Positions 1 through 33,680 of a DNA stretch of 64,000 nt are shown piece by piece. Positions within the stretch are counted from its first letter, which is position 1. Each line of letters starts with the position of its first letter. The DNA is from Cymodocea nodosa (taxonomy: Eukaryota; Streptophyta; Magnoliopsida; Alismatales; Cymodoceaceae), in NCBI GenBank assembly GCA_036874045.1, contig CM072347.1, forward strand, positions 5,396,501 through 5,460,500, read 5' to 3'. A program made the translations under genes and the position numbers. The notes under the pieces were generated by a model. That model ran no database searches and was not told the origin of the DNA. It saw only the letters and a list, made by a program, of their open reading frames with translations.

Positions 1-2102
1 TTTTATATATCCTATTGATATTGTAATTCTAGATTCCCAACAAATTAAGCATAAAAATAGTGATACATCTTTAATTTTGGGAAGACCATTTTTAGCAACA
101 TCAGGGGCTGTTATAAATTATAAAACTGGAGTAATGAAGTTAGCATATGGTAATGAGGATACTCAATTAAATATTTTCAAACCAAAAAGGTTTGAGGAGT
201 TAGAAATGTCCTTACATACCATAGACTTTTTAGAGAATGAAAGAGATATGTTAGATGATGTGATTCAAGAAGAATTAAATAGGCAAATCAATTTTGAAAC
301 TTTAGAAGAAAGTGAAAGCATAAATATAGAAGGAGATCAGAAAGAAATTAATTTAAAAAATGATGATGTTCAATTAGGAGCTCTAGCTTCTGATGGGCAG
401 CATTTAGAATTAAAACATTACCTCCTGAATTAACCTATATATTTCTGGAAGATAAACGGACCTGTCCAATCATTATTGCTTCAGATTTGAAAGAGGATCA
501 AATAGCTAAATTAAAAGAGGTAATAAAAAGTTATAAAGAAGTAATAGGATGGACTATGACTGATATAAAAGAATTAAGTTCAACTTTATGCTGTCACCAT
601 ATATATTTAGAAGAGAATGCTAAACCTGTTAGAATTCCTGAGAGGAGATTAAATCCAAACCTTAAGGAAGTAGTTAGGAAGGAAATAGTTAAATGGTTAG
701 ATAATGATATAATATATCCGATTTCTGATAGTTCGTGGGTTAGTCCAATCCATGTAGTTCCCAAGAAATCAGGATTAATAGTTATTAAGAATGAAAGTCA
801 AGACTTGATACCTACTAGAATTCAATCAAGTTGGAGAGTATGTATAGACTATAGAAAGCTGAATGTTGTGACTAGGAAAGATCAAGAGTAAAATATTACT
901 ATTGGGAAGACCCTTACTTATATAAGAAATGTCCTGATCTAGTTTTAAGGAGGTGTGTTCCAGAAACTGAATATTCGAGCATATTGTCTTTTTGTCATGA
1001 CCAAGCTTGTGGAGGACATTTTGGTTCAGGGAAAACTACTGCAAAAATTCTACAATGTGGGTTTTATTGGCCAACACTATTCAAAGATGTTCATAAATAT
1101 TGCTTAAGTTGTTTAAGATGTCAACAAATAGGAAGAATATCAAAGAGGAATATCATGACTCTTAATCCTATTGTTGAGGTTGAAATCTTTGATGTGTGGG
1201 GAATAGATTTTATGAGTCCATTTCCTATATCTAATCAATTTAATTACATATTGTTGAGGGTGGATTATGTATCTAAATGGATAGAAGCTATTCCTACAAA
1301 AACTAATGATAACAAAGTGGTAATACAATTTATAAGAACAAATATATTTGCCAGATTTGGAATACCTAAAGCTATTATCAGTGATAGAGGAACTCATTTC
1401 TGTAATAGAAGTTTTGAAGCCTTAATGAAAAAATATGGAGTAAACCACAAAATTGCAACATCATATCATCCGCAAACAAGTGGACAAGTAGAAAGTGCAA
1501 ACAAACAAATTAAATTAATCTTGAAAAAAGTAGTAAATCCTACTAGAACAGATTGGGCTAATAGATTGATTGATGCACTTTGGGCTTATAGAACTGCTTA
1601 TAAAACGAGCTTAGGTATGTCACCTTTTAGGCTAGTATATGGAAAAAGTTGTCATTTACCTGCTGAAATAGAACATAAAGCTTATTGGGCATTAAAAACT
1701 CTGAACACTAATTTAAATCAAGCTGCCGAAAATAGGAAAATGCAACTAATTGAATTAGAAGAATTTAGAAATGAAGCTTATTCGAGTACTGTAAGAGAAA
1801 AAGAGAAAATTAAATTCTGGCATGATAGAAAAATTATTCCTAAAAACTTTGAAATAGGACAAGAAGTATATCTTTATATGGCTAAACTCCATAACCATCT
1901 AGGAAAATTAAGATCTAGATGGGTAGGACCTTACATAGTTCGAAATGTTTATCCTTATGGAGCTATTGAAATTGAAAATTCTAAAAATCAGAATATATTT
2001 AAAGTAAATGGACAAAGACTTAAACCTATTCTGAAAACACCAAAAAGCTCTTTTGAAATTATAGAAGAAATCAGAGTAGAGGACTACTCGAGTTTTACTT
2101 AG
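1..2102 (+). pseudogene. pol: E1 pol (protease, partial reverse transcriptase, integrase), fossil
   Basis: The left part encodes the end of an Athila-type aspartic protease (GRPFLATSGAVINYKTGVMK; the same motif occurs intact in E3). It is followed by the N-terminal RT region (ESSWRVCIDYRKLNV-like motif, here SSWRVCIDYRKLN) and an integrase. The integrase shows the zinc-binding HHCC part ([11 protein letters not shown] then CLRCQQIG), catalytic-core motifs ([24 protein letters not shown]) and a C-terminal tail ending at 2102. The integrase half reads as one long frame of 372 residues. Pol is incomplete and broken in a few places. The protein would cleave the polyprotein, copy RNA to DNA and insert it. 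Confidence 0.9.
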
Positions 2103-2844: not shown

Positions 2845-5012
2845 TTGAAGGAATCAGAAGAGTGGCACACGCGGCAGAAGATCAGAAATACGACAAGAGA
2901 GAAAGAGCTACAGAAGGTAGAATCAGAACTTTTCAAGTTGAGAAGAGATTTAGTAGATATGGATATACGAATACCTCAAATGATGGAAACACGAATCAGA
3001 ATCGCAACAGAAATAGCACTAAGTAAAGAAAGACAAATAAGGCCAAGTAACGAAGTTGCCCTAGAATTAATCCAGCGTAAGTCCCGACTTTGGTTCAAAA
3101 GACGAATCTATAGACAAGCTAAACGGGTGATCTGGGAGCAAGAAAGGAAAGCAAATGAAGAGGCAACTAAAGAACGGGAGGAACCAACTGCTGAAAGACT
3201 TATTCTTGAGGAGCAGCAGTCTGGACCTTCAGTTCCACCAATTAAGTCATTGACACGAGCAGAAATGATGGGGCCTTCGACTGAAGAAGAAATAAGAGAA
3301 TTTGCAGAATTGGTTCAAGTTGGAAAAAACCAAGGAGAATCAGAAGACTTGGCAGTGGCTAAAGCACACCTGGTGTTTGATGCACTGTACAAAAAGAGGG
3401 CTGCAGAAAAGTTGAAAGCCCAATATAAAATCAAAGTGGAACAGCATCACGCAGCTACTGCCAGAACTGTTGCCAAACCTACTGCAAAAGGAGATGAAGC
3501 TGGTCCTTCGAGACCAATAATTAAAGTTAAACAGGAAGAGCTAGTACCTGTGACTTGAAGGCCTGTAGAGCCTATTGTTATAGATTTAATTTCAGAAGAT
3601 GAAGAGGAAGAACAGGCACAACTAATTAGAAAAAAGAAAGGAAAAGAAAAAGTGCCTAAATTTGAGGAAATTAAATCTGAAGTACCAATTTTTACAGGGC
3701 CTGTGGAGCAGATTTTTATTAACCTGCTATCCGATTCTGAGGAGGAGCAGGAGGAGCAAAGAAAAGAAAAAAATCAGGCTGAAATTAGTCTGCAGCTTGT
3801 ACAAGAAGAAACAGAAATTAGGGTAGAAACTGAATTGCCTGTGACTCCATCCCAATTGTTATAGAATCAGAAAGAACAGTAACAGAACAGATTGATAGTT
3901 AGGAGGAAGAAGAAAGAGTAGAAAATGAAGAGGTTGAAAGAAGCCATTTGGAAAAAAATAATTTCACAAATTCCACTGAAGAGCAAGAAACTCTTCAGCA
4001 AATTATGTAAAGAATTCAAGATAGAGTGGAGAGTTCTGCCGGCTCACCACCATAGATAGAAGCAAAAGCAAAAATTCAGGAATCTGAAGAGAATGTCCAA
4101 ATGCAGCCTATGCTGGAGGAAGAGCAAGAGCAAACCCCTTTGGAGCAACAAAGTCACCTTCCTAACCCGATTGAAACAACAATTTTGAATGAAGTACATT
4201 TTTGTAGTCAGGAAGCTTATATCAAATACCAAGAAATAAGGGGTTACGATATTATTTACAGTAGACCAGTAAATTGGGATGGAATGCAAGAAATCAAAGA
4301 TCTATTTGAATTCCAAGGTCTACTGCAATTTATATCTCAAGATAGAGGGCATGCAGTATATGAGAATTTAGTGCCCTATTTCTATGCAAATTTAAGAGAA
4401 GGAGAAGGAGAATTAATTTCAAATGTGGAGGAAGCTGATGTACAGATAACACCAGAGCTTCTCCACAACATATTTGGTTTAAAGAATGAAGGAACAAAAA
4501 TTTTGGAGGATACAACTGCAGTTGAATGGACTGAGCAGCAAATTAAGGATTGTTTAGCTATCAATCCTGGTGTGCCATTATTAAACAGATTGAAGCATTT
4601 AAATGGTAAAACACACATGGTAGCTAATATTCTGATTAAGAATGTCTATCAACGACAGGGTCATGACATAGAATTAAGTCAATTTGTCAAATGGGCCACG
4701 TATGCAGTTGTAAATAAAATCCAAATAAATTGGTCTGCAGTTTTTGTCTCTATGCTGAAAACAGTAAAGAAGAAATTATTTTATGGAGATTTGATTCCAC
4801 TGCTGATGGTGGATAGTATTGATTTCACTAAATGGACATCAAAAAGGAAAAGATCTAGAACCATTTCAGTGAAAGAATACAGAAATTTTGTAGCTGCGGA
4901 ACTAGCAGTACCTTCTAGAGGAATTACAGGAGCTGTAGAGAGGATTAATCAATTAGAACTTCAATTAGAAAAACTCCAGAAGGAAGTAGATGAACTTAGG
5001 CATAGAGATTAA
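2845..5012 (+). pseudogene. E1 env-like ORF (Athila third ORF), fossil
   Basis: The N-terminal third is a charged, probably coiled-coil segment (ESEEWHTRQKIRNTTREKE, then QRKSRLWFKRRIYRQ). A very acidic, Q/E-rich middle follows. The C-terminal 300 residues form a globular part with motifs IKDLFEFQGLLQFI, NIFGLKNEG, MVANILIKNVYQRQGHDIELS and KLFYGDLIPLLM. This resembles the putative plant transposon protein domain found in Athila-type elements (from memory; not searched). A coiled-coil is seen near the C-terminus (RINQLELQLEKLQKEVDEL). No signal peptide or clear membrane segment is seen, so 'env-like' refers to position only. It is broken in a few places. The same domain occurs in the copia ORF at 17879-20053. 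Confidence 0.8.
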
Positions 5013-5446
5013 ATTGTATTGTTCGTCTACTTGTGTAAAATTGTATGAAATTGTATGATGTACTTGTATTGTAATTGATTCATATTAATGAATGTAAATT
5101 TTTCAGATGCAATTTTCATACGTGTTTTGAATGTGAAATGAATGGAAATTATTGAATATTATGTTATTGTGAAACTTTATGAATGAATATGTAACAGATT
5201 TACAATTTGCTGAATGACAGGATAACTGCTTAAAAATTTCTACATGTTATAAGGTAAAATGTAAATTCTACATAACATAAAATGACCTACAATTTAAATC
5301 TTTATATAATGTTCAGATTTAAATGTATTTTAATCAAAATGAGGCATTAATGACAAAGATTTAACTTTATTACAATTAGTAGAATGACAAAAAAAAAAAA
5401 AACAGAATAGAAAACTTACGAGAGTGAAACTTAGAAGTTGCTAAGT

Positions 5447-5625
5447 GTTAACTCAACGAAGTAAGTCCATTGAGTTAACCGTAACTCCACGAGCTCAGTA
5501 ATATAATATAAGGTCACTCCGTTGAGTTATCTATAACTCGACGAAGTTAGTCCGTGGAGTTAGCAACAGTAACCGACTGTGTTCTGTTGAGTAATCTGTA
5601 ACTCAACAAGGTTAGTTCGTGGATT
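5447..5625 (+). repeat. Palindromic GTTGAGTTA/TAACTCAAC cluster upstream of the gag cassette
   Basis: About five imperfect units of the motif (for example 'ccgttgagttatctataact' and 'ctgtaactcaacaaggttag') alternate with CCGTGGAGTTAGC variants. The homologous cluster in E3 lies at 42795-43005 and in E5, inverted, at 49900-50160. Confidence 0.8.
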
Positions 5626-5789
5626 AAGCAGAACAGTTATTCTTTTAACCACAAACGAAACTTCGTCGGTTTAGCGGTTACCAAAATTTGAAATTAGTAG
5701 TGGTACACGTACCCATAAAAACAAGAACCACGATGCACGTTGCAAGCCACGTTCTTGCAACGAGATTTATTCACTTTATGGATGCGTAG

Positions 5790-5797
5790 TATATATA
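5790..5797 (+). promoter_or_regulatory. Candidate TATA box of an internal promoter for gag/F-box (E1)
   Basis: TATATATA lies about 135 bases before a good 5' splice site and 320 bases before the gag start. The E3 counterpart (43168-43175) is a better box, TATAAATA, and the flanking 'gaacagaatgttattta' is conserved between the two. A promoter inside the element is inferred from this; transcription starts are not known. Confidence 0.4.
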
Positions 5798-5932
5798 TGA
5801 AACAGAATGTTATTTACGAGTTACCAGCACTTTTAAGAGAAAGGAGAAAGCGTTGGAGGAACTGGAAGGAGAAGCAGCTGATTCAACCTTCATCCGATAA
5901 CAAATATTTATAGAATGGAAAGCTTCAAACAG

Positions 5933-6033
5933 GTATGTAATTAATCTTCTGCTATTTATTTATGAGCACATGGACTCGTTCTCTAAGCACTAAACGATTA
6001 GTAAGAACACCTACCTAGGAATTTTCATTGTAG
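5933..6033 (+). other. Candidate intron in the gag leader (E1)
   Basis: The donor context is AAACAG|GTATGTAATT and the acceptor is ATTTTCATTGTAG|AGG, about 101 bases apart. E3 has the equivalent at 43309-43424. In E2 the whole stretch is absent, and the leader runs from the primer-site region directly into the exon-like sequence AGTACTGAAAA. Confidence 0.45.
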
Positions 6034-6117
6034 AGGAGTACTGAAAAATTTTCTGAACTGAACTTTAACAAAATTCTTTAGGGTGTAGCTAACCTTTCTT
6101 TAAAAGAGAACGTAGAG

Positions 6118-7305
6118 ATGGCTGCTCCAGTAGAAAAACCATTAGGAGAGATTCTGTATCCTGAATTAATTGATGAACCTTCATGTATTCGATTGCCAAA
6201 CTTTGAGGGAGATAGGTTTGAACTGAAATCTAATTATATTAGTCAATTGCCACATTTTCATGGATTAGAAAGAGAGGATGCCTATTATTTCCTTAGAGAA
6301 TTTAACGAAGTTTGTCAAATGATGAGAATGTCGAACATGAGTATAGATGCTATTAAACTTAGATATATCCCTTTTGCTTTAAAAGATACAGCTAAGAGAT
6401 GGTTATATATTCTGTCGCCTGATTCAATTTCTACATGGACTGAATTTCGCTCTGTTTTTCTGAAAAAATACTATCCAACACATCAAACGATTAAAAAGAA
6501 GAAAGAAATATTAATGTGTAGCCAAAAACAAGGTGAATCATTCTGAAAATATTTTGAAAGATTTAAAGATTTACTGACTCAATGTCCACATCATGCAATG
6601 AGTATAGCACAATTAATAGGCATAATTTATGAAGGCATAGATGTTTCAACGAAATCTTTATTAGAATCTACTTGTCAAAATGGATTTTTAAAATTATGTA
6701 GTGAAGAAGCATGGGCATATTTAGAAAACTTTGCAAAAAGAACTGCATAGTGGGAAAATTCGGTTGAAGCTATTGCAGATAAAAGAATATTGTCAAGAGG
6801 AATGCATGAAATAGATTCCAATACTATGCTGGAGGTGAAATTAAATGAATTAACAAAGAAAATAGAAGAATTATCATTAAATCAAAAGCTAGCAGAAAAG
6901 AATACAAACATAAATAACTTAGATATTATTTATGCTAGAAACCAGAGAGATAACTTGGGAAATTCTTATAATCCTAATTAGAGAAATCTCCTGAATTTAA
7001 CTTGGAGAAACAACAATTTCCAGGGAGGAGAAAATATAAATGAGAAGAACATAAGTTATGAAGTATTAATTGAACAAGGAACTAGAATAGAGAAATTAGA
7101 AAAGATAATCCAACAAGTAAACAATCGTCTAGAATTTATATTTGGAAATGCTGCAAATCAAAATTAGAATAGAAATATATCACTTAGACAGAATGAACCA
7201 ATGGAAGTTAGACCTACTAGAGGATTGCCAATACAAGCTATACCTAATCCTGTCAATAGAACGGTTAATGAAATTGATACCTCTTTTGGGAGGGCAGCTG
7301 AATGA
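6118..7305 (+). pseudogene. gag: E1 gag (Athila-type capsid protein), fossil, placed after env-like ORF
   Basis: The start MAAPVEKPLGEILYPELIDE follows a leader shared by all three copies. Residues ~28-140 carry the Retrotrans_gag-type capsid core: LPNFEGDRFELKSNYISQL, HFHGLEREDAYYFLREFNEV, IKLRYIPFALKDTAKRWL and WTEFRSVFLKKYYP. ERFKDLLTQCPHH and the LESTCQNGFLKL region follow, matching Athila gag order. The C-terminal part (NSYNPNWRNHSNLSWRNNNF in the E2 copy) and a coiled-coil close the protein near residue 395. I see no zinc knuckle; that sits in a separate ORF next to the primer site in E3. It is broken in about three places. Position downstream of pol and env is the anomaly. Confidence 0.88.
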
Positions 7306-7330: not shown

Positions 7331-7488
7331 GTATGTATATATGTTTTTATTTTTTTACGTTAATAGTATCGTAGAGTTAATTTTTAACTCAATGAACTTA
7401 GTCCATTGAGTTATGCCTTAACTCCACGAGGGTGTGTAGTAGTTATGTTAATTTTTGTCTCTACTAAATTTTTGTTTTTATTTTACAG
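7331..7488 (+). other. Candidate intron between gag and F-box gene (E1)
   Basis: The donor is GTATGTATAT and the acceptor is a pyrimidine-rich TTTTATTTTACAG|AATCG, ten bases before the F-box ATG. It contains a GTTGAGTTA-type palindromic unit (about 7370-7432). E2 has the same intron-like segment at 13548-13701. It could let one transcript deliver both proteins, or be an old 5' UTR intron of the captured gene. Confidence 0.45.
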
Positions 7489-7497
7489 AATCGACAA

Positions 7498-8637
7498 ATG
7501 GAATTAATGCAATTACCATTGGATGCACAAAGGGAAATACTAAGTAACTTGTCAGCTAAAGATCTGTGCAGGATGTATTGTGTATCAAAGGAAATTAAAG
7601 ACTGTATTGTAGAAAAATATTTTCAGGGACTACAAGCTGCAAAAATGACTAAGATTAGAGATAGATTCATATGGAGGTCATTTAATTGTAGTTCAAATAC
7701 CCATGAATATCTGGCTATGGAAGAAACTACTGGAATTCCACCCAATGCATTAGAAGGAATGAGTCATATTATGGGGATAGATGAAGGATTAATCATATAC
7801 AAGACGAGACCAAGGTATGCAAGTTTATAATTACTTGAGATTTTGATAAGAAATCCTATAACAGGAGAAGAATGTAATATAGGAAGACCTAATATATTTG
7901 AAGCACCAATTGAAAATTGTGGGTCATCTTTAATATTTTCTGATAAAAATTCTACAATTCCTGAAAAATTATATTATTGGAGACCTACAGGAAATTGGGG
8001 TGAAGATTTACGCTTAAGTGTGTATAATTTTCTGAATAGATCTTGGAATGAAAACATTATGATATATCTAGGACAGAAATCAGTAATTAACCAAACACAT
8101 GTCATACTTGATGGTTATATCTATTTAGTCACGGAGATATCAATAACATATAGATCTGATTTATACATAGTGAGCATAGACAGTTATGATGATTATATAG
8201 AAATTTTACCTATACCGAGTGAAATAGCTAAACCACCATCTGAAAAATTTAATGAAATTCAAATAGGAATGTGGTATAATGAAGAAGATGATCCTATTTT
8301 ATGTCTGATAAGATGGTGGGATGAACTGATGAAATTTCAAATATGGATTATGGAAGACATGAATGAATGGAAGTGGGAAGAGGAGTATATTGAAATAGAT
8401 GTAGAAATAGAAACTGCTACATTACCCTGGAACCAAAAAGGATCCCTTTCTGCATTACATATCATTAATGGTAATACACTCGTATTTGGAATTTATAATA
8501 TATTGCATGTTTACAAATTAAAAAGGAACGAAAACTTCATTAAAACAGAATTAATAGCAAGAAGAACTATGCCTAAAAAGTTTGCTTGGACTGATACATT
8601 TATTCTATTTGTTTCTACTTTTCAATCATGTTCTTAA
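7498..8637 (+). pseudogene. Captured F-box protein gene, E1 copy, broken
   Basis: The N-terminal ~40 residues fit an F-box: MELMQLPLDAQREILSNL, then SAKDLCRMYCVSKEIKDCI. F-box proteins bind SKP1 and choose targets for SCF ubiquitin ligases. The rest (about 340 residues) resembles plant F-box-associated domains: ILIRNPITGEEW-type motif, LSVYNFLNRSW, VILDGYIYLV, DLYIVSIDSYDDYIEILPIP and FQIWIMEDMNEW. The total coding span is about 379 codons, normal for this protein class. It is nearly whole with about one break. It sits between gag and the 3' noncoding region, in the element's sense orientation. No other retroelement protein looks like this, so capture of a host gene is the best reading. Confidence 0.85.
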
Positions 8638-9062
8638 GCTGTGATTTTGTGTGTTTAACGTGTGTATTCTGTATTTATTTTATTTTTTTTAAATAAAAAA
8701 AAAGGAATTTTGAAGTTTTTCATGTTCATTTTATAAAAAAAAAAAACAAACAAAACAAAATATCAATCCAGTTTGTTGGTATCTATTCTAGGAAACCAAC
8801 TGGCTTGCTTGTGAGCCACCAAAGGCATAGGAGCCTAGGTTCCACACAAGACACTGATTTATTAATATCTGTTAAATGTTATTTTGTTTTATATTCTGTG
8901 TTTATCTGGGAATGAAAAGTTTTTCAGAATCAAAAATCGAAATATGCAGAAAGAGATACAAATGGAACAAGGTATGTAACCAATTACTTATCCTGAATTT
9001 TAAATCAAACAAAACTTTATTCATGCCTGCTACAATTATTGTACTTATTGTCAAATCTTTTA

Positions 9063-9099
9063 CATTGAGGACAATGCAAAATGTAGGTATGGGGGGAGG
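9063..9099 (+). promoter_or_regulatory. Internal hairpin plus polypurine tract (E1)
   Basis: CATTGAGGACAATG forms a CATTG/CAATG stem. It is followed by GTAGGTATGGGGGGAGG. This is the arrangement that normally sits directly before the 3' LTR in Athila/Tat elements, yet the LTR here begins 1.3 kb downstream behind a second such signal. Equivalents are at 15270-15309 and 46546-46580. Confidence 0.7.
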
Positions 9100-9289
9100 T
9101 AATTAAAGTAACAGCCATGCAAGTTTGTTAATTAAAGGAATTAAAATGGTACTGCAAAGTTTTGAGGAAATTGAAAATTTTTCTGAACTTACTATAACTA
9201 TCCGATAATTGAGACTGTAAAATTTTTATAAACTACTTGAATGTTATATTTAGAAGGCTATAGAAGATGCTATAGAATTTATTATTTAT

Positions 9290-10200
9290 GTAAATCTAGA
9301 TATAGTATCTTATGATTTTTCTGAATTTCATGAGTTTAAAAGTTTCACGATTTTAAAATGAAATCAGAATATTTAATGCTTAATCAGAAAATTATCTGAA
9401 GTCCTGAAGGAGCTAAGATGTGAATTCTAGATTAAATGAAACGCATATGATGAAAGATACATTTACTTTGACTGATTGAACTTGTAGAATGATTTATGTG
9501 TAGATCTTATTAAACTACAGATAAAGTATGAGCTTATTATTATGGATTCATATTTTTAGTAAATGATAGAAGCAGGATTATATGAGATTGGTGTTTTACT
9601 GCATCTGTATTAATGAAATACATGCATATACAGTATGTGATTAATGCTTTGTTTTGTGTGTGCATTTGTTTTTTTTTTTGTTTTTTTTTAAAAAAAAAAA
9701 AAAGACTTTGAGAGTTTATTGACTTGTTTGATCACGAGCCTTTTGTACTTGAGTAGATAGGTATGTAAGGATTGTTGACCTAAAAAAGGACTCTGAAAAT
9801 CTAGCAACCTAAGATCTTGATCAGATCTGGGATTGTTGACTGAAAGCTCGTTACATGGGTACATTAGAAAGCTCTTGTATGATTCAAGCTTGTCAAATTA
9901 ACTTTTAAAGTACACAAAAAAAAAGAAAAAAAAAAAAAAAACATATACTATTCTGAAAAGATACAAGTGTTTTGTGAAATACAGATATCTTATGAATCGA
10001 GTATATTTTTTGTTATCTAGAATTGCTGAAATATGAATCTAGAATTGACTTTTGAAGTTGTTTAATGGAAATACAATTCTTTATTCTACTTGTCTTAATC
10101 AGATTGAATTGGATTGTACTTTGATTCGTATGTTGTTGAAATTTCTTCTAGAAAACTTGTTGGAAAATTCAGGATTACAAATGATGAAAAGAAGAACAAA
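9290..10200 (+). repeat. Noncoding block shared with the copia element (E1 copy)
   Basis: Landmarks such as 'gagcttatt', 'actgcatctgtattaatga', 'ttgatcacgagccttttgta', 'gtatgtaaggattgttg' and 'cttgtatgattcaagctt' occur in the same order in the copia element's spacer (20650-21500, minus strand). The sense is the same in both elements. Identity looks moderate, roughly three quarters or more by eye. No ORF of note runs through it. It lies between the two polypurine tracts of this element. Confidence 0.75.
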
Positions 10201-10387
10201 CGATAATATAATTAACACCTATATGAAGATGATATACTTTGTATGTAATTTACATATATTCTAAATATCTTTGCAGGTTGATTACTGAAACATACAGAAT
10301 ATATGTTTATGCTAAACAGAAGAAAAAAAACAAAAGGGGAAGAATTAATTCTAGCACTTTTTGAAAGACCAATTAATTAGATCTTAG

Positions 10388-10425
10388 TTTGCTAAGGGAC
10401 TAGCAAAATTTAGGTATGGGGGAAG
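10388..10425 (+). promoter_or_regulatory. E1 polypurine tract with upstream hairpin
   Basis: TTTGCTAAGGGACTAGCAAA forms a stem-loop, followed by TTTAGGTATGGGGGAAG directly against the LTR start TGTTTAG. It would prime plus-strand DNA synthesis. E2 (29690-29727) and E3 (47857-47894) have the same signal. Confidence 0.85.
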
Positions 10426-12212
10426 TGTTTAGAATGAAAAAGTGCATATTATTAACGGTTAAATGATGGTTAATTGCATAATATTTAGCTTATCATATGA
10501 GAATTAAGCCAATATGTTATAATTGCACTGTTATATGCTTTAATTGAAGAATCTACTAAATTTTGGGGAATTAATGTTAATTTAGTACATTTATGAACTG
10601 TCGGTAAATTGCAGGCTGTGAAATTCTTAAGTATCCAAAAATGCATCTAAGCATCGGATAGTTATACCTGTAACTCTCTGAAATGTTATTTTATGTTTAA
10701 ACTACTGCTGACACATGTCAAGATCTAGTAGATTTACTTAAGTTATAACTCATTAAGTTAGCATAACTGTACGCGTTGAGTTGCTATATTGAACACTAAG
10801 GCAACGCGTTAGGTTAGCGTTATAAACTTAAGTTGTTATTTTTGCACGTGTTTTATAGTTAAATCAATGAAGGAAGTCCGTTGAGTTATCTGTAACTCCA
10901 CGGACTATATATTTTCTAATATGCCACTGTAGAGGTTGCAAGAACAGACAATTGGAAGGAAAAACCACGTTTGCACGTATCACGTAGGAATTCAATCGCG
11001 CAGGGAGAAAGAAATCATCACCGTTGATCTGAAGGAAGGAAATCCAACCAACCATTCAAGTAGAAGCAGTTACTACTGAAGAAATATAAAAGAAAAGAAG
11101 AAAAAAAGAAGAGGTGTGTGATCGATGGACGGCTAGTGTATATAGAGGAGGAGCACCGAGCTTTCTGCAGACAGTATCGGCGATTCTCCGAAGTATCACA
11201 CCAACTATCGTTATCACCACCATAATCACCAATCATCAGAGGTCTGTGAGGATACTTGCCTGATGTCGGGTCGATTCCGAGCCAAACACAGTGCCTGACA
11301 ACCACTATAAGGAGTGATCGCGTCGCGGGAAGGAAAGACATTTTCACCAAGCGCCGACTCATATTTCAAGAGATCGTAAAGCTTTTCGCCTTGGCTTCGA
11401 GTTGATGCCTGTATGCTGAAGAGGAGATCATCTTGCAATTCTAGACTCGCGATTCTATAGGGAGAGGAGACAGGATTGTAAGTGGTTTAATTTTCAGTGG
11501 TGTAATCGCGTTGCAAGTAGTATCAGAATTATTTACTATCAAGTGAGATTACTTTACATTTCACCTATCGCCCATTTCCATGTTCACATCAAAACAAAAA
11601 TACCAAAAACAATTTATCTTTGTTTGTATGTTGTATTTGAGTGTTGTATTATTTGTGTTGTATCGTGATTAATGTTATCTATATTAGTTTTATGATTATT
11701 TTATGTTAGTTTTAATTTTACAGTTTACTGAAATTGGTTCGTACAAAACAACTTAAAGATTTTAATGGTTACTGTTTGAATCATCTAAATGTTAGCATTG
11801 CTTAATGATAAATCCAATGTTAACTAGCATTAAAAAGCTTAATTGATGTTATTTACAATCTGTGGAATCGCCCAATGGTTGGTCGAATTCCTCTGTAAAT
11901 AGCAGTATTATAAAGAAGAGACAGTCTCGTGGAGTTAACTTAAGTCCACGAGGATAGTCCGTTAAGTTAACTGTAACTCAACAGAGTGCTTATTGAATAT
12001 AAATTTGAATTGTTCATAATCAAACATTTCTTAAATTCATCAGCAATTCCCTATGGGATCGACCTGTACTTGCACACTGATACAATAGACATTGTGCACT
12101 TGTAGTTAAAGTACAAATTGGAATTAATATCTAAATTGTATTAAAGGTTGTTTGTTTACTTCTAAAAGAAAGAATAGGCATAAAGATAAATTAAGTAAAA
12201 ATAGAAGTAACA
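10426..12212 (+). repeat. LTR A1, shared between E1 (3') and E2 (5')
   Basis: The LTR starts TGTTTAGAATGAAAAAGTGC after the polypurine tract and ends near ...AGAAGTAACA, just before a primer-site-like sequence; 1787 bp. The U3 contains CACGTG-like and GTTGAGTTA motifs. A TATA box (TATAAAAG, 11085-11092) is followed by a GC-richer transcribed part. A candidate intron runs from GTAAGTGG at 11478 to a TTTTACAG acceptor ending at 11723. The R/U5 tail carries the conserved 'gggatcgacctgtacttgca' stretch. It is about 365 bp shorter than LTR A2, mainly in U3. Confidence 0.85.
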
Positions 12213-12334
12213 AATCCAAGTTTTTCTAGTGTACTGCTGGAAAAACACAAACAAGTACTGAAAAATTTTCTAAACTGAACTTTAACAAAATTCTTTGGGG
12301 TGTAGCTAACCTTTCTTTAAAAGAGAACGTAGAG
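12213..12334 (+). promoter_or_regulatory. E2 degenerate primer-binding site and gag leader
   Basis: 'tttttctagtgtactgctgg' lines up with the Athila-type tRNA-Asp primer site seen cleanly at 33661 (TGGCGTCGTTGCC), but is decayed. The leader then runs into AGTACTGAAAAATTTTC and on to the gag start at 12335. From AGTACTG onward it matches the E1 leader downstream of the candidate intron. Confidence 0.6.
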
Positions 12335-13522
12335 ATGGCTATTCCAGTAGAAAAACCATTAGGAGAGATTCTGTATCCTGAATTAATTGATGAACCTTCA
12401 TGTATTCGATTGCCAAACTTTGAGGGAGATAGGTTTGAACTAAAATCTAATTATATTAGTCAATTGCCACATTTTTATGGATTAGAAATAGAGGATGCCT
12501 ATTATTTCCTTAAAGAATTTAACGAAGTTTGTCAAATGATGAAAATGCCGAACATGAGTATAGAAGCTATTAAACTTAGATATATCCCTTTTTCTTTAAA
12601 AGATACAGCTAAGATATCATTATATACTCTATCACCTAATTCAATTTCTACATGGACTGAATTTTGCTCTGTTTTTCTGGAAAAATATTATCTAACACAT
12701 CAAATGATTAAAAAGAAGAAAGAAATATTAATGTGTAGCCAAAAACAGGGTGAATCATTCTAGAAATATTTTGAAAGATTTAAAGATTTACTAACTCAAT
12801 GTCCACATCATGTAATGAGTAAAGCACAATTAATAGGTATAATTTATGAAGGCATAGATGTTTTAACAAAATCTTTATTAGAATCTACTTGTCAAAATGG
12901 ATTTTTAAAATTATGTAGTGAAGAAGCATGGGCATATTTAGAAAACTTTGCAAAAAGAACTGCATAGTGGGAAAATTCGGTTGAAGCTATTGCAGATAAA
13001 AGAATATTGTCAAGAGGAATGCATGAAATAGATTTCAATACTATGCTGGAGGTGAAATTAAATGAATTAACAAAGAAAATAGAAGAATTATCATTAAATC
13101 AAAAGCTAGCAGAAAAGAATACAAACATAAATAACTTAGATATTATTTATGCTAGAAACCAGAGAGATAACTTGGGAAATTCTTATAATCCTAATTGGAG
13201 AAATCACTCGAATTTATCTTGGAGAAACAACAATTTCCAGGGAGGAGAAAATATAAATGAGAAGAACATAAGTTATGAAGTATTAATTGAACAAGGAGCT
13301 AGAATAGAGAAATTAGAAAAGATAATCCAACAAGTAAACAATCGTCTAGAATTTATATTTGGAAATGCTGCAATTCAAAATCAAAATAGAAATATATCAC
13401 TTAGACAGAAGGAACCAATGGAAGTTAGACCTACTGGAGGATTGCCAAAACAAGCTATACCTAATCCTGTCAATAGAACGGTTAATGAAATTGATACCTC
13501 TTTTGGGAGGGCAGCTGAATGA
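12335..13522 (+). pseudogene. gag: E2 gag, fossil
   Basis: Nearly identical to the E1 gag by eye, with the same start motif and capsid core (LPNFEGDRFELKSNYISQL, EEAWAYLENFAKRTAQWEN). The C-terminal part reads NSYNPNWRNHSNLSWRNNNF, then a coiled-coil (EQGARIEKLEKIIQQVNNRL) and a proline-containing tail ending FGRAAE. Here gag has the normal Athila position, directly after LTR and primer site. About two breaks. Confidence 0.88.
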
Positions 13523-13710: not shown

Positions 13711-14850
13711 ATGGAATTGATGCAATTATCAATGGATGCACTAAGGGAAGTACTAAGTAACTTGTCAGCTAAAGATCTGTGCAGGCTGTGTTGTGTATCA
13801 AAGGAAATTAAAGGCTGTATTGAAGAAAAATATTTTCAAGGACTACAAGCTGCAAAAATGACTAAGATTAGAGAAGGATTCATATGGAGGTCATTTAATC
13901 GTAGTTCAAATACCCATGAATATCTGACTATGGAAGAAACTACTAGAATTCCACCCAATGCATTAGAAGGAATAAATCATATTATGGGGATAGATGAAGG
14001 ATTAATCATATACAAGATGAGACCAAGGTATGTAAGTTTATTATTACCGGACATTTTGATAAGAAATTCTATAACAGGAGAAGAATGGAATATAGGAAGA
14101 CCTAATAGATTTGAAGCACCAATTGTAAATTGTGGGTCAACTTTAATATTTTCTAATAAAAATTCTGCAATTCCTGAAAAATTATATTATTGGAGACCTA
14201 CAGGAAATTGGGGTGAAGATTTACGCTTAAGTGTGTATAATTTTCTAAACAGATCTTGGAATGAAAACATTATGATATATCTAGGACAGAAATCAGTAAT
14301 TAACCAAACACATGTCATACTTGATGGATATATATATTTAGTCACAGAGATATCATTTGCATATGGAGCTGATTTATACATAGTGAGCATAGACAGTTAT
14401 GATGAATATATAGAAATTTTACCTATACCGAGTGAAATAGCTGAACCACCATTTGCAGAATTTAATGAAATTCAAATAGGAATGTGGTATAATGAAGAAG
14501 ATGATCCTACTTTATATCTGATAAGATGGTGGGATGAACTGATGAAATTTCAAATATGGATTATGGAAGACATAAATGAATAGAAGTGGGAAGAGGAGTA
14601 TATTGAAATAGATGTAGAAATAGAAACTGCTACATTACCTTGGAACCAAAAAGGATCCCTTTCTGCATTACATATCATTAATGGTAATCCACTCGTATTT
14701 GGAATTTATAATATATTGCATGTTTACAAATTAAAAAGGAACGAAAACTGCATTAAAACAGAATTAATAGCAAGAAGAACTATACCTAAAAAGTTTTCTT
14801 GGACTGATACATTTATTCCATTTGTTTCTACTTTTCAATCATGTTCTTAA
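13711..14850 (+). pseudogene. Captured F-box protein gene, E2 copy, broken
   Basis: F-box at residues ~3-42 (MELMQLSMDALREVLSNL, then SAKDLCRLCCVSKEIKGCI). The F-box-associated-like region follows from about residue 110: LLLPDILIRNSITGEEWNIG, LYYWRPTGNWGEDLRLSVYN, VILDGYIYLVTEISFAYGAD, YIEILPIPSEIAEPP and MKFQIWIMEDINE. About three quarters of the protein reads in one frame, with about one break. It is closer to the E1 copy than to the E3 copy. F-box plus F-box-associated proteins are a huge, fast-evolving plant family; the specific host source is not recognised. Confidence 0.85.
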
Positions 14851-15679: not shown

Positions 15680-15684
15680 GACTG
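15680..15684. repeat. Target-site duplication GACTG, left copy
   Basis: GACTG precedes the copia LTR start TGTAGG. The right copy is at 28803-28807. E1 shows the uninterrupted site as TTTGACTGATTGAAC near 9468, which confirms the duplication. Confidence 0.97.
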
Positions 15685-17261
15685 TGTAGGATTGTATGGC
15701 TACACAAGAGGGGGGTGAATTGTATATCTTTAATATTTTCTGAAATATAGTTGAAACTTTAAAACTCAAAAACAAGTCGAGACATTGTTTTCATAAAATC
15801 ATTTTTATTCAAGGTTTCAATTACAATATACAATTCAATTCTCCTCAGAAATTGTAGATGCAATTATATTTCGATACCATGTATCATCTAAACAATTTCA
15901 TAACTACAAACAGAGAAAACTAATTTGCAGAATTTAAAACTTTTCTCCCTGTTTGAGATCTTTCTTCTTCTTCTTTTTCTTCTCCAGCAATTCTTCAGTG
16001 ACGAATATCTTGTCTTTTCATGCTTCACCGAATTTGCTTTCTTCTGATACTTCAAATCTTCAGTGACGAAAATCTTACCTTTTTATGCTTCACTGAACTT
16101 TCTTCCACTTGAGAGATTTTCCCTGAGAAGGTGTTTTTGATCCTTGAAAAAGATTTTTCTTTTGGTGTACAGGGATGGTTTGATCCTTGAAAAGATTTTT
16201 CGTTTTGTGTGCAAGGATAAATTGATCAACGAGAATTCTATGCCTTTTATACTGTATCTTCATTTCATGCATATCTTTCACGTTTAACCACCACCAGTTT
16301 TCCACTTCTCCATGTCTTTTCTTTTTCCTTCATCTAAACACACACGTTCTAACCCACGTTTATATTTCGAATTTTCTTTAATCATCAGTCTTGGATCTCT
16401 GAAAAATTTCCTACAAAATAAACTTTCTCGTCCAAAAGTTTTTCATCAGTGTAATAAGAAGTCGTTACTTTAATGTTAACTAAACGAGTAACACAAGTAT
16501 ATATATAACTTAACGTTTCTAACTTAACAAGTTCCTCATGTGCCATTTCACGTGACAAGTACTGTAGCTAACTCAACGAACTATGTCTGTGGTGTTATGC
16601 TATCTCAACGAACCATCTCTGTTGTGTTATGATAACTTAACGAACCAGTAATAAACAAATGTTTTTATAATAAGAATTTTACCACGTGCAAAAATAACAA
16701 CTTAAGTTTATAACGCTAACATAACGTGTTGCCTTAGTGTTCAATATAGCAACTCAACACGTTTAGTTATGTTAACTTAACGAGTTAAACATGTGCACCT
16801 CATGTGATACAATACAACATTCGTAACTTATAATTTCACCACGTGTATAACACTAACTTAACGAGTTCGTCTCTTCTTTTACTCACTAACTTAACGAGTT
16901 ATCACGTGACCTATTTTAACCTTTAAGCCTCTAACTTAACGAGTTCTCATGTGAATACAAACAAAATTCTAACTTAACGAGTTATCTAAACCTACACTGT
17001 TCATGATATAGAAGATATAACATTAAAACATATCACGCTTTTCAATAAAAAACACACGTTAACTTAACGTTTAGCTAAATGAGAAATTAATGCAACAAAA
17101 CGACTAGTTATTAACTTCAGATCCAATACAAACAAGTATTTATATCAGTAAGCTTTTTCTGTATTAATTGATGATTTTAATTTCTTTTCACAAGCAATAG
17201 TAATTGAGCAAATATGATTATTTTCATTCAGCACACATCATCAAAACAAAAATACTCAACA
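15685..17261 (-). repeat. Copia 3' LTR
   Basis: 1577 bp. On the minus strand it starts TGTTGAGTATTTTTG and ends CTACA. On the plus strand it opens with TGTAGGATTGTATGGC and the SIRE-typical AGAGGGGGGTGAATTG. It lacks one copy of a ~32 bp repeat unit that the other LTR has, and carries the U3 block shared with the gypsy LTR A2 at 16683-17116. Confidence 0.95.
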
Positions 17262-17287
17262 ATCTCCCCCTTTTTGATGATGACAAA
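17262..17287 (-). promoter_or_regulatory. Copia polypurine tract
   Basis: On the minus strand the sequence reads TCATCATCAAAAAGGGGGAG then AT, directly before the LTR start TGTTGAG. This is the classic SIRE/Maximus plus-strand primer. Confidence 0.95.
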
Positions 17288-17878
17288 ACCATATTAAATC
17301 AATTATGAAATATGTATAACTCAACAAAGCTCCTTCGTTGGGTTAACTTTTAATTCAACAAACTTGTTTGTTGACTTAAGTTCACTTAAGCTTATTTCTA
17401 TTGTTTGTGTAAATTTTACCTCTCAGAACTAAAACTCTCAAATGTCAATAATTATATAAGTATCAGTTTTCTAATTATCATCTGTCAGATTACAATAACC
17501 ATTTAAATAGCATCTCCTTTTATAATATATATATGCAATTAAGATCATAATCATCTTTTTATAATATTTCTCCCCCTTTTTGTCATTAATCAAAAAGATA
17601 ATTACAAAGAATATATATACATATATAAGAGATATAATTACAACAACTCTTTCTGTAAACAAGAATAATAATTGAAGACATTTATAGAAAAATGTATTAT
17701 TTAATGAATCAAACAAGTAATACAAACATTACATTTTGTATTCAGAAACAAACAAAAACAGTTAGCGACCCCTCCTAAGTATATCACTTATAGCAGTACA
17801 TATTTTATCTCCTAGATGCCTAATATCATTTCTAATGTCGTTAAGCACTACATCTAAGTCAGGAGGTAGCTGGGTTTG
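17288..17878 (-). other. Copia 3' noncoding stretch
   Basis: About 590 AT-rich bases lie between the third ORF and the polypurine tract. They include a second short G-rich tract (minus-strand AAAAAGGGGGAGAA near 17568-17581) and palindromic GTTGAGTTA-like pieces near 17320-17350. No gene seen. Confidence 0.7.
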
Positions 17879-20053
17879 CTATTCTGCTTGAACTAAATAA
17901 CTTTGTTGTTGTTGTTGTTGTATATGGTCTGTATCAGGTTGTTGTTGTTGTTGTCGTTGAGGTTTATGCATGGCCTGGAATTTTTGCAAATCTTTGACAC
18001 TAAATGCTCTCATGCCTTTAGTTTTAGAGGGCCAGTTGGATAAATTCAATTGGCTTGCAATGAGTCTACATACAGCATCACCATAAAATAACTTTGAACT
18101 CATATGCTGTAGTTGAGAAGTGAAAACATCAAACCAATTGATTTAAATTCTATTCAGCAAGCTATAAGTTGCATATAAACAACTTTTGCTGACTTCCATA
18201 TTGTGTCCAACTCTCTGAAATAAATTTGCATGCAATATATTTGCAATAAACCTTGCCTCTGCATTCAGATTTTCCATTAATCTCATTTCAGAATATACAT
18301 CTGGAATTTTTGATAAAGACTGAATGTTCCATTCCAGTTGTCTTATCATGTCAAATCTATTGGTAACAACAACACCTTCATTCTTTAATCCTAAAACTTC
18401 AAAAACTAATTCAGGAGACAATATAAACTCCTATTCATTTATTTGAGTTTTCAGAAAATTTCCATTCTTGACCAGATTGCTATAAAAAGCTGCAATAAAC
18501 TCTGTGTATTGCTTCCATTTCGTTCCTACTAGCAAGAATTTAATGAGGCCTTGAAATTCAAACAGATCTCTTATGTCCATCAAATTTCTAAATTTTATTA
18601 GACAAGCATGCAGAATCTGACATGTAATCAGATTATTGTATTTCTGCAATGCTTCTTCAGATCTAAAATGAATTGTATTACCTTGAATGTTTAACATTGT
18701 ACACAAAGAAGGTGATACCTGAAGCCGTGATTCAGAGTTTAATTCATCTTCAGGAACCTCTTCTTCAAAATGAATGTCATGTTGTTCCTCTTCCAAAATA
18801 TTATCTTGAAGCTGCTCAGGTAAGCTTGATTCTTCAGCTTCAACAGTGTTAGGAACATTGTCAATATGCTCAACATTCATCTGTTTAGTCTCTATAGAAT
18901 GTTCAGAGTACAATTTTTCTACAAATTCTACAGTCGGTGTATCTGTCGATAATTGTTCATTTTGTTCAACAGATATTTCCATTGATTCATGCTGTGAATT
19001 CTCAAACTTTGCTTCTATAGATTCCGTAGAAGGCTGGTTAACTTTTAGCTCTTCTAGAGTCTTAACAATTTCAATATCTGCTACTCCAAATAATTCAGCC
19101 TTTGAACTAGTTACTGCCTCAACATTGTCAATTATATCTGCAATAACTTGTTCAATGTCAGGTGCCTGATGCTCTGATTTGTCAATTTCTGCATCATCAA
19201 GACTTGTATTAATAGAAAAACTTGAGCTTATATTTGACTTGGATTTCTTCTCAAGCTTTCTAGCAAGGGAAAATAAAGTCTCATTATCTTCATCAGTTTC
19301 AGTGTGTTCGGAACTAATGAGTTTATCAGATGCACAATAAGGTACAATGTCTAGACATACATTATCCTTTGAAAATAAATTTTCATCTGATTTTCCTTTT
19401 TCAATAGACTTTGTTTCCTTAGACATAATTTTTCTAACTTTCCTTCTATAACATTTTTGTTTTTCCTTTTCAAGTATTGCTGTTTTCTTTTCAAATTGCT
19501 CCATAAAAGTTTTCTGCTTTAATTCTTCTAAGGCACTTTCTATTGCAATGGCCTTTCGAAGACTATTAACTTTTGTTTTGTCTACAGCAATATCTGATTC
19601 TACTTGTTTTGAATATAAAGGAGTAAGGATAGCTGATTCATGCTCTTCCTCAAATGCATGTAGTCTTGTACCATTTATAGGAGTTTGAGGAGTTCTATTT
19701 GATGAACCTACACCTTTTTCCAAATATTTTGCAAACTGTTCCAAAAATGCAATCTCAGCACATTTCATTCTGTATTCTCTATCATATTTGCTTCGAATAC
19801 CCATGTATGTAATACTTGCATCAGTATGTTGAAGTTCTTGTCTAACTTCATCTAATATATCCTGAGAAAAGAAGTAATCTCTATAAAGTTCTTCTAACCT
19901 TTTGTCCACTTGAAATATTTTCTTGAACCAAGTATGTGGAACTTCATCATTCTCTATTTCTTTTCCTTTTGCATCTCTTTTGCTTCTGCCTTTTCCTCTG
20001 CCACGACCTTTGTAGAACTTGGAGACCATCGTTGCAGATTGTAACAGCAACAA
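17879..20053 (-). pseudogene. Copia third (env-like) ORF sharing the Athila env-position domain, fossil
   Basis: It opens with a basic segment (KFYKGRGRGKGRSKRDAKGK), followed by a helical region and a long acidic E/S-rich middle. The C-terminal globular domain has motifs MDIRDLFEFQGLIKFL, FEVLGLKNEG, FIANILHANLFQRVGHNMEV and KLFYGDAVCRLI. A glutamine-rich tail (two Q runs from GTT repeats, 17897-17955) ends it. The C-terminal motifs line up one by one with the gypsy env-like ORF at 4190-4900. No signal peptide or clear transmembrane segment is seen. About two breaks. Most of the length (540 residues) reads in one frame. Confidence 0.82.
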
Positions 20054-21616
20054 GCGGGAAAGATTTTCTTGACAAAGTTTACAAATAACCTAAGTCCCCG
20101 TGTTATAAGTGTTTAAATAGGGTTTTTAGGCGTATAACTCAACGTGAAGATAAGTCGGGTTTAGAAATTAAATAAATATTGAATAAAGTTTATTCAATCA
20201 AGGTACTCGAAATATTCAAGTATAACTCGTTGAGTTAACTAACCTAACGAGTAAAACGCTGTCTAGAGGTAGTTTTACACGTTACCTTATCTAATATAAC
20301 GTCTAGTTAGTACACTTAAACAAGTTTCAGATGCTTCCAACTAAAACGTTCCGAAAACAACACACATGCTAAACTTAACATTATCTTGAGAACATTGTAA
20401 ACTATTTGAACATTTTGTCTTTTGAATCTAGAATAGTTTATTTGTCTTTTTAAATTATTTCATCAAGATTTTAAGAGGACATTAATTCAGATTAACTAAG
20501 ATTTGTATTTTAAATTATATTAATCTGTTTTTGACATTGTTAATGCTCCCCCTACAAATATACTTCAAATATATTCAATCAAAATACAAAATATACTTGT
20601 AGTGACAATAGATGTTAAGTATAACTATACTTTTACATTTTATTTTCAGAGACTTCCGTTATCCTGACATCATCAAAAATGATTTCCAGAATCAATTCCT
20701 ACTGTATATGAATCAAAACACAACTTTGAACTCAATTCGATTAATTCAAGGAGAATAAAAGAATGTATCTCAAATAAACGTTTTCAAAAGTACTAATGTT
20801 GATTCAATAAATCAGTAGTCATATTGGTATAAACTATATGCGATTCAAAGATATCTATAATTAATGAAACAACTTTTTCTTTTCAAAACAGTAAATATTG
20901 ATAATTTTCTTTAAAAGTTAGTTTGAAAAGCTTGAATCATACAAGAGCTTTCTAATGTACCCGTGTAATGAGCTTTCAGTCAACAATCCCAAATCTAATC
21001 AGGACCTTAGGTTGCCAGATTTAAAGAATCCTTGTTCAGGACAACAATCCTTACATACCTATCTGCTCAAGTACAAAAGGCTCGTGATCAAACTGATCAA
21101 TAAACTCTCAAAGATTTTCACTTTGTAAGCACTTTTCATTTTAAGTACAGTATATATGTATTCCATTAATACAGATGCAATAAAACATAAATCTCATACA
21201 ATTTTTACTTCTATGATTGTACTAAGAATATGAATCAGTTTCAATAAGCTTATACTTTTGATTAACAGTTTAAGATGAGTTACATATAACTTATTCTACA
21301 AGTTTAATCAATTAAGTCAAATTTATGCATGATCATATGCATTTTCCTTGATTCAAAGAAAACATTTAATCAAAATTTCAGAATGTTAGAAGTATTTAAT
21401 GTTTTTCATTTACACTTCCACTTAAAATCGTAAAAACCATTAAAATTGATAAACTACTTAAAATCAATAAGATACTACTATGATTTTACAATAAATACAT
21501 AGTATCTTAAGTAGTAGTTTAGATATTACTTTAGATATTTATAATAAGTATATAATATCTATGAGGTGAACAACATCATCAATAATATTTATCTTTTTAT
21601 GTGGAGTTTAAGCATT
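20054..21616 (-). other. Copia spacer between RNase H and third ORF
   Basis: A 1.56 kb noncoding spacer, AT-rich. It holds palindromic GTTGAGTTA pieces near 20150-20240 and the block shared with the gypsy family at 20650-21500. In SIRE elements the signal for splicing to the third ORF is expected here; I could not pick one acceptor. Confidence 0.7.
20650..21500 (-). repeat. Noncoding block shared with the gypsy 3' region (copia copy)
   Basis: On the minus strand it contains 'attgcatctgtattaatgg', 'gatcacgagccttttgtact', 'aggtatgtaaggattgttg', 'ctgggattgttgactgaaag'-like and 'gctcttgtatgattcaagct' in the same order and sense as E1 9290-10200 and E3 46740-47620. It continues past 'tttgagatacattcttttat'. 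This is too long and ordered for chance. Confidence 0.78.
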
Positions 21617-24600: not shown

Positions 24601-24728
24601 CTTTTGTTTCCAAATGTTACACTTCCTTTCATGGTATTTGTAAAATTTTGTAATAGACTTTTTTGTCCGGTCATGTGACTTGACGCTCCACTGTCCAAGA
24701 TCCATTTTGATGTTGTTTCCTCCTGCAA
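21617..24728 (-). pseudogene. pol: Copia pol: protease, integrase, reverse transcriptase, RNase H, fossil
   Basis: Protease active site WILDSGASSHMTG near the start. The GAG-pre-integrase zinc motif (LWHRRNGHINMRLL) is followed by integrase core residues in IHMDLFGPT, RSDHGTEFDN and GVVERKNRSL (D,D,E). RT has WIFRNKTNETGQIIRNKARL, QMDVKSAFLNG, ALYGLKQAPRSWYERL and the catalytic IYVDDIIFG. RNase H has STTEAEYVGAALCCTQILWI and ADIFTKPLDE. Protease through early RT is one open frame of 603 residues. About three breaks overall. Protease-integrase-RT order is diagnostic for Ty1/copia. Confidence 0.95.
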
Positions 24729-24734
24729 TACAAA

Positions 24735-26988: not shown

Positions 26989-27188
26989 TTTACCTTAGAT
27001 TTTTCAACCTATTTAATTTTAAACAGTCTAAAAACTTTAAAGCAACTTGAGCCTTAAATCAATAGAGTTAAATGTATGCTCAAATATTAATTTCTGTTTA
27101 AAAACAAGGAAGGTAGAATAAGCAATGATATTAAATAAGTTGGTATCGATTTTATATCAAAGATTATTAACAAAGCTCTGATACCACT
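26989..27188 (-). promoter_or_regulatory. Copia leader and initiator-Met primer-binding site
   Basis: On the minus strand TGGTATCAGAGC (27175-27186) is complementary to the 3' end of plant initiator-Met tRNA and lies two bases past the LTR end. The rest is a ~190-base leader to gag. Confidence 0.95.
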
Positions 27189-31879: not shown

Positions 31880-31918
31880 AATCCAAGTTTTTCTAGTGTA
31901 GTGTTGGGAAAACCCAAG
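31880..31918 (+). other. Decayed primer site and leader stub after LTR A2
   Basis: 'agtttttctagtgtagtgtt' and 'gggaaaacccaagca' match the start of the E2 leader (12218-12255). The sequence then switches to the body of LTR B. This marks a recombination junction between an internal leader and another LTR. Confidence 0.65.
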
Positions 31919-33660: not shown

Positions 33661-33680
33661 TGGCGTCGTTGCCAAGGATT
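33661..33680 (+). promoter_or_regulatory. E3 primer-binding site (tRNA-Asp type)
   Basis: TGGCGTCGTTGCCAAGGATT differs slightly from the TGGCGCCGTTGCCGGGGA site that Athila and Tat elements use with tRNA-Asp. It is the best preserved primer site of the gypsy copies here. Confidence 0.88.

Follow-up and report, generated by a model that had tools for sequence, protein, structure and literature searches.

Three F-box open reading frames lie on the forward strand of the window, by which we mean the whole 64,000-nucleotide stretch of the Cymodocea nodosa genome analysed here, and each belongs to a copy of an LTR retrotransposon, designated A, B and C (Table 1). The ORFs, of 379 codons each (380 with the final stop), were found where the initial annotation had placed them, and its reading of the element-sense order as gag, F-box and polypurine tract was correct, the tract being followed by the LTR. 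As they stand, all three are dead, broken by stops. A feature that goes beyond that annotation is the position of gag; in A and C, two of the three F-box copies, a capsid-type gag lies downstream of the integrase and of a further ORF, and adjoins the F-box gene. In copy A this further ORF occupies the position of the Athila env-like ORF.

Table 1. Features of element copies A to D, and of a nested element, in the window
Feature	Positions	Strand	Remarks
Copy A, integrase part of pol	984..2102	+	PF00665 4.3e-16, PF17921 4.1e-12; element runs past left window edge
Copy A, extra ORF region after pol	2845..5012	+	PF20167 (Transposase_32) 1.3e-5, 25.6 bits, under 45-bit cut-off
Copy A, pre-gag region	5400..6117	+	Palindromic repeats, TATA-like stretch near 5790, leader exon
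Copy A, splice donor CAG/GTATGT	after 5932	+	Possible gag acceptor at ~6033
Copy A, capsid-type gag	6118..7305	+	Downstream of pol; PF03732 1.7e-9; common stop at codon 396
Copy A, spacer	7341..7497	+	Palindrome and F-box splice acceptor TTTTACAG/AATCGACAAATGG
Copy A, F-box ORF	7498..8637	+	379 codons, one internal stop (codon 111)
Copy A, 3' untranslated region	8638..10425	+	Polypurine tract at end
LTR common to A (3') and B (5')	10426..12253	+	TGTTT..AAACA
Copy B, gag	12335..13522	+	PF03732 1.6e-6
Copy B, F-box ORF	13711..14850	+	PF00646 7.5e-8; one internal stop (codon 291)
Copia-type element nested in B 3' region	15682..28802	-	Outside the F-box element; RVT_2, rve, SH3_retrovirus
Copy B, 3' LTR	29728..31919	+	Insert ~30067-30508
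Copy C, 5' LTR	31920..33652	+	Start truncated
Copy C, primer site	33661..33678	+	3 mismatches of 18 to tRNA-Asp type
Copy C, 5' ORF region	33760..35604	+	Knuckle-like CEFYNLEGHNISDC (by eye, no profile match) and protease
Copy C, reverse transcriptase, RNase H, integrase	36216..38405	+	
Copy C, extra ORF region	40565..42341	+	Weak PF20167
Copy C, gag	43509..44699	+	PF03732 2.4e-6 for 43584-43919
Copy C, F-box ORF	44923..46062	+	Seven internal stops
Copy C, 3' LTR	47895..49897	+	End point uncertain
Copy D, LTR, protease, pol, extra ORF	50227..61389	-	Inverted; similarity stops before any F-box

The LTRs form two groups, A/B and C/D, approximately 23% apart, and copy C may be a mosaic, since its two LTRs are not mutual closest relatives in the LTR tree. 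A and B are 95-96% alike in gag and F-box; with this likeness, a common LTR and no selection apparent between the two, B could be a tandem derivative of local origin. It begins right after its LTR, at 12254, with neither primer site nor pol. This start looks like a microhomology deletion, and an origin of B as a copy of spliced RNA was rejected, its start having AGT in common with what follows other LTRs and B lacking a primer site. Tandem LTR-internal-LTR layouts recur, both at the LTR common to A and B (12253/12254) and in the dispersed copy L012, whose 3' LTR is followed by primer-site-like sequence. Supposed primer-site remnants after each LTR were discarded once the LTR ends had been fixed. 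The nested copia-type element has a target site duplication (TSD), GACTG, and LTR segments which are 94-98% similar; its 540-amino-acid ORF at 18431-20053 gave no Pfam match at E 0.1.

A profile search found no capsid domain in the 5' ORF region of copy C. By eye, only the knuckle-like part of gag is kept at this end (33724-35604 compared with 6118-7305), and the capsid-type gag at the 3' end has no clear knuckle; a split of gag into two ORFs is thus possible, as read by eye from one 5' end, that of copy C. Palindromic repeats with a core like TAACTCAACGAACTTAGTCCGTTGAGTTA stand at ORF boundaries (2517-2538, 5449-5607, 7419-7427, 13598-13626, 38763-38791, 42802-42920 and 44807-44849) and in the LTRs, and similar motifs occur inside the nested copia-type element. 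Their core 9-mers number 56 in the window against 0-5 in ten first-order Markov sequences, three folded examples gave z values of -3.2 to -8.2, and they are possibly recombination or regulatory sites. A candidate middle LTR before gag was rejected, the similarity found lying in these repeats.

The general traits are those of an LTR retrotransposon, with two LTRs bearing TG..CA ends, a primer site and a polypurine tract; the exceptions are B and the dispersed copy L017, which have no primer site, and L013, whose 5' LTR starts TATTT. Protease, reverse transcriptase, RNase H and integrase are present in gypsy order with gypsy-type profiles, the protease matches lying under their cut-offs. An 18-mer which we take to be the tRNA-Asp primer-site sequence was matched with 0-3 mismatches at eight of nine 5' ends (L017 being the ninth), and 4,999 of 5,000 random window places had seven or more mismatches to it. 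No chromodomain was matched in the integrase ORF by profile search, and the 120 integrase relatives listed include Malus, Tanacetum, Vitis and others, one of them under a bacterial name. Passages of PMC1142308 describe the Athila lineage as primed by tRNA-Asp; the primer site and the gypsy-type pol domains, rather than a tree against named Athila sequences, thus support placing the element as Athila-like Ty3/gypsy, in keeping with the initial annotation. Like the Athila lineage (Athila, Calypso, Diaspora), it combines a gypsy-type pol, a tRNA-Asp primer site a few bases past a TG..CA LTR and an additional sense ORF located after pol and before the 3' LTR, but it differs in having an F-box gene, an adjoining capsid-type gag after pol and splice sites that skip gag. 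Athila gag is expected 5' of pol, whereas the capsid-type gag of A and C lies 3' of it.

The N-terminal F-box proposed from the letters alone was confirmed by Pfam profile search. PF00646 scored 32.4 bits in copy B against a cut-off of 20.5 and 18 bits, under the cut-off, in copy C, and was matched by 10 of the 11 members (best 8.7e-11) of an alignment that combined two pieces of C with nine dispersed copies whose frame is uninterrupted, which places the N-terminal F-box above the Pfam cut-off. The proposal that the C-terminal half is F-box-associated-like held in part; TIGR01640 was matched at 7843-8634 (E 3.6e-7, 29.8 bits, cut-off 37.9) and, at E 1 or better, by 9 of the 11 members, and PF07734 by three of 11 (best 6.3e-4; 15.1 bits against a cut-off of 21.1 in the member shown), so that the resemblance is weak and lies below the curated cut-offs in the members shown. 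Two dispersed copies, L029 (24.5 bits) and L030 (24.1 bits), exceed the PF07734 cut-off. Searched with the F-box ORF, a protein database which does hold plant pol proteins yielded no relative at E 1e-3 among 230 candidates or at E 10 among 3,691, viral contigs gave five pattern matches with none confirmed, and solved structures gave none at E 1; both F-box structure predictions were too poor for use (mean pLDDT 32). Across the host genome PF07734 had two matches, both the F-box element itself, whilst 150 of 4,219 PF00646 candidates were scored, at least 10 of these 150, by eye, at the spliced leader/F-box junctions described below. No host donor gene was picked out by these two profile searches, and capture of the F-box from the host is presumed.

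The family is dispersed throughout the host assembly (374.6 Mb, 28 contigs). A search for the F-box ORF gave 135 scored matches from 6,303 candidates, distributed over 20 contigs, and oligonucleotide counts with up to three mismatches found 3,362 F-box 3' ends and 4,040 polypurine/LTR ends, with 0 in each reversed-pattern control. Twenty dispersed copies, taken as 10-kb stretches and hand-picked by F-box similarity across the ranking of the 135, all have a full F-box, then the 3' untranslated region (3'UTR), then the LTR start, in this order (with partial probe coverage of 79% for the 3'UTR in L024 and 39% for the LTR start in L028); gag is full in 15, partial in four and absent in one. An approach not conditioned on the F-box gave the same arrangement: among the first 100 exact polypurine/LTR ends of contig C1, 24 were preceded on the same strand by an exact F-box end (controls 1 and 0), in 23 cases at 1.73-1.83 kb. 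The pairing drew on 68 of the 93 F-box ends listed for C1 (those up to 17.84 Mb), and the figure of 24 is a minimum, since only exact marks could count on either side. At nine loci inspected for TSDs, perfect 5-bp duplications were found in L013, L017 and L021 and four of five bases in L020 and L009; L010 and L023 had none, L012 is a tandem LTR, and the 3' end of L014 was not found. LTR pairs, measured in seven copies and in some across part of the LTR, diverge by 4.3-5.7% in the five copies with a perfect or four-of-five TSD, by 7.7% in the tandem L012 and by 11.4% in L010, which has no TSD. In L023 a solo LTR of the family with the TSD AGAAC lies at 320-2275 in element orientation. The association is therefore not peculiar to this locus, and a chance neighbour multiplied by local duplication, suggested by the LTR common to A and B, their 95-96% likeness and the lack of selection between them, is rejected as a full explanation and is vanishingly improbable against matches on 20 contigs, TSDs at distant loci and a constant spacing of the integrase, F-box and LTR marks.

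The gag gene is flanked by splice signals. A donor, the leader end followed by GTATGT, is present in 16 of the 20 dispersed copies; in L017, which has a TSD and no primer site after its 5' LTR, the leader end CAGACTG is joined to AATCGACAAATGG and exactly the GT-AG segment that includes gag is absent, the acceptor ACAG lying directly before the F-box ATG exon in other copies. The same CAGACTG/AATCGACAAATGG junction was found at 191 places genome-wide (91 + 100, with up to two mismatches; control 0). Starting from integrase matches chosen independently of the F-box, at least 12 of the best 110 (of 12,603 candidates) were followed on the same strand, at 4.7-5.3 kb, by a spliced junction (both controls 0), 100 listed junctions of the 191 having been used. 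As the integrase-to-F-box distance is approximately 6.3-6.4 kb in most full sampled copies and the missing piece is approximately 1.56 kb, this spacing fits the loss of gag alone, thus suggesting, from 12 of the 100 listed junctions, that the spliced template was an integrase-bearing RNA and not a short internal transcript. From the exact GT-AG loss in L017 and the 191 junctions it follows that the F-box protein is probably made from a spliced RNA which was also reverse-transcribed; judging from these integrated copies, we regard expression of the F-box by splicing as very likely. The 191 junctions could have arisen from few splicing events followed by amplification. Passages of PMC1142308 state that, as of 2005, neither retroviruses nor LTR retrotransposons had been reported to have an intron upstream of gag. 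A strong donor-like motif, AAGGTATGTAA, was also seen downstream of the F-box (window position 8970; approximately 7960 in sampled copies) in 18 of 20 copies, and may mark an additional splice within the 3'UTR. The 191 junctions without gag might instead be read as the older, intron-less state into which gag was inserted later; however, gag occupies the corresponding position in the diverged copy C, together with sites that resemble a donor and an acceptor, L017 is near A-like copies in sequence, and the missing piece ends precisely at GT and AG, which makes this order of events very improbable.

That coding similarity persists across the diverged copies, as had been noted, reflects a selected ORF. 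Between the subfamilies dN/dS is 0.37 for the F-box (A-C; B-C 0.44) and 0.29 for gag (A-C and B-C alike), and C compared with 24 copies gave a median F-box value of 0.37 (range 0.26-0.44); between A and B no selection on the F-box is visible (1.12; gag 0.72). In a frame test, which counts amino-acid changes per frame after a shuffle that preserves the base-change spectrum, such changes are depleted in the true F-box frame (A to C z -4.8, C to A -3.5), more weakly for B and C (B to C z -2.7; C to B -1.7, p 0.06), and are not depleted in the other two forward frames for A-C, although one antisense frame is mildly depleted too (F-box A to C z -2.3; gag -3.0). Indels among A, B and C in F-box and gag are all multiples of three, whereas 14 of the 15 3'UTR indels between A and C have other lengths.

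The same signal was found among dispersed copies when differences were separated into common and private ones, leaving out C, columns missing in B and sites with more than two states. Common F-box differences in 24 copies comprised 69 amino-acid, 46 silent and three stop changes (expected 84, 24 and 9, the last being 9.2), silent changes making up 46 of 115 against 22% expected (p 2.5e-5); private ones comprised 94, 38 and 12 (expected 102, 30 and 11), with 38 of 132 silent against 23% (p 0.12), and are near neutral. For gag in 17 copies the corresponding counts were 62, 38 and 8 (expected 75, 23.5 and 8.9) for common and 98, 38 and 9 (expected 102, 29 and 13) for private differences. The pattern in both genes is that of genes kept in active elements and released after insertion, as read from the integrated copies. 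In 25 copies, namely the 20 sampled together with A, B, C, L006 and L008 (L007 is not among them, and L002-L005 coincide with four of the 20), nine F-box frames are uninterrupted and 16 broken, as would be expected for old insertions, and only three carry a frame-shifting indel. A stop at gag codon 143 in A, B and C was considered as a programmed stop and rejected, since 15 dispersed gag copies have TGG in 10, TTG in one and a stop in four. F-box distances follow those of the adjacent 3'UTR (Mantel r 0.55 without C, 0 of 2,000 shuffles) and, more weakly, those of the next stretch, the LTR start (r 0.35, 104 of 2,000 shuffles). The gag/F-box block is part of the mobile unit, and the F-box frame is kept by selection during movement; that the F-box gene is a selected part of the element we hold to be highly likely. 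The many broken copies and the neutral appearance of the A-B and private changes are what would be seen if a transduced piece of a host gene were carried unused, and transduction of gene pieces by LTR elements is known, at low copy, from passages of a review (PMC7264820). Such a passive hitchhiker is quite improbable, however, with purifying selection on common changes, three stops against 9.2 expected, a dN/dS of 0.37 between subfamilies, frame-shifting indels in just three of 25 copies, a splice donor kept in 16 of 20 and thousands of copies.

Some copies raise the question of whether the gag/F-box block is a separate non-autonomous element, inserted in the 3' part of a pol-bearing family. 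Copy B consists of LTR, gag, F-box and LTR alone, LTR-like palindromic repeats precede gag, and in L012, L013 and L014 (three of 20) the F-box is kept with 0.6-0.7 kb from the 5' LTR to a deletion junction, so that these copies have no room for pol. The deletion concerned, in the extra ORF, is common to six of the 20 copies, its junction exact in five and with two mismatches in L017. L012, L013 and L014 have this same deletion with different gag deletions, and the F-box has an internal stop at codon 378 in L012, at codon 313 in L013 and none in L014. Against a separate element, A and the C subfamily, though 23% diverged, have the same extra-ORF/gag junction, the LTR similarity before gag lies in repeats, and integrase and F-box occur at fixed spacing in 12 copies; we consider it unlikely.

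Plant LTR elements often have unexplained extra ORFs. The F-box is the substrate-picking part of a ubiquitin ligase, and its usual partner is SKP1; because the extra ORF here is an F-box with a known usual partner, the hypothesis of host manipulation is directly testable. In the explanation which we propose, and consider probable as a whole, an Athila-like family would carry, in thousands of copies, a second block of coding sequence, lying between pol and the 3' LTR and composed of the extra ORF, a capsid-type gag and the selected 379-codon F-box gene. The F-box protein would be translated from the spliced leader/F-box RNA, and that RNA would sometimes be packaged and reverse-transcribed, as the integrated copies suggest. 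By analogy with F-box proteins in general, its N-terminal F-box would bind host SKP1 and so join an SCF ubiquitin ligase, whilst the C-terminal half would pick a target whose loss aids the element; we rate the chances that the protein is an SCF adaptor as evenly balanced. The most likely target would be a factor of silencing or of virus-like-particle restriction, as with polerovirus P0, and a silencing factor is put forward tentatively, by analogy. The initial annotation had already suggested that such a gene might act on silencing factors or on host immunity. If the explanation is true, retrotransposons join plant viruses in exploiting the ubiquitin system. The genome moreover preserves fossil traces of a spliced accessory RNA, as well as of a gag apart from the 5' end of its element.

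The F-box protein may instead serve to regulate the element that encodes it, rather than a host silencing factor, for instance through degradation of Gag, its own or that of rivals, as copy-number control. The F-box adjoins gag, and since both lie downstream of the same leader the two could come from alternative RNAs; yet the F-box is kept in four copies without part or most of gag, and self-regulation appears doubtful. Host manipulation could also take a more elaborate form, in which the family resembles a complex retrovirus, its genomic RNA accompanied by a spliced accessory mRNA whose product, an F-box protein, hijacks SCF to destroy a silencing factor, the spliced form being re-inserted to give two interdependent kinds, one with pol and F-box without capsid and one with capsid and F-box, which may complement each other in trans. 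This form, too, seems rather unlikely.

Parallels to host manipulation have been described among plant parasites. Polerovirus P0 and crinivirus p22 are reported to use an F-box-like motif to reach SKP1, the P0 of some poleroviruses targeting ARGONAUTE1, and the element, known here from sequence alone, would resemble these plant genetic parasites in its route to SKP1; in the published descriptions theirs are F-box-like motifs within viral suppressors, whereas the element has a 379-residue F-box protein with an F-box-associated-like half. Another parallel is an orchid gypsy family with an AlkB (m6A demethylase) domain, which passages of PMC9289625 propose to act against host control; a host-type regulatory domain is likewise kept across many gypsy copies, but the domain is a different one. 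Extra ORFs and acquired domains in plant gypsy elements are, as passages of several papers indicate, a known kind of feature (PMC7264820, PMC9289625, PMC6317226, PMC11963269, PMC1142308). The initial annotation knew of no Athila lineage with an F-box gene, and likewise no F-box-carrying LTR element was found in searches of an open-access library; the term has 0 occurrences in the main texts of PMC9289625, a screen of 121 angiosperm genomes, PMC11963269, PMC13317346, PMC6317226 and PMC1142308. The Retand gypsy elements, according to passages of PMC11963269, have a long post-pol region with extra ORFs and tandem repeats, and some clusters without gag; those of their extra ORFs with known domains are antisense and mostly TRP28, whereas the extra ORF of the F-box element is in sense.
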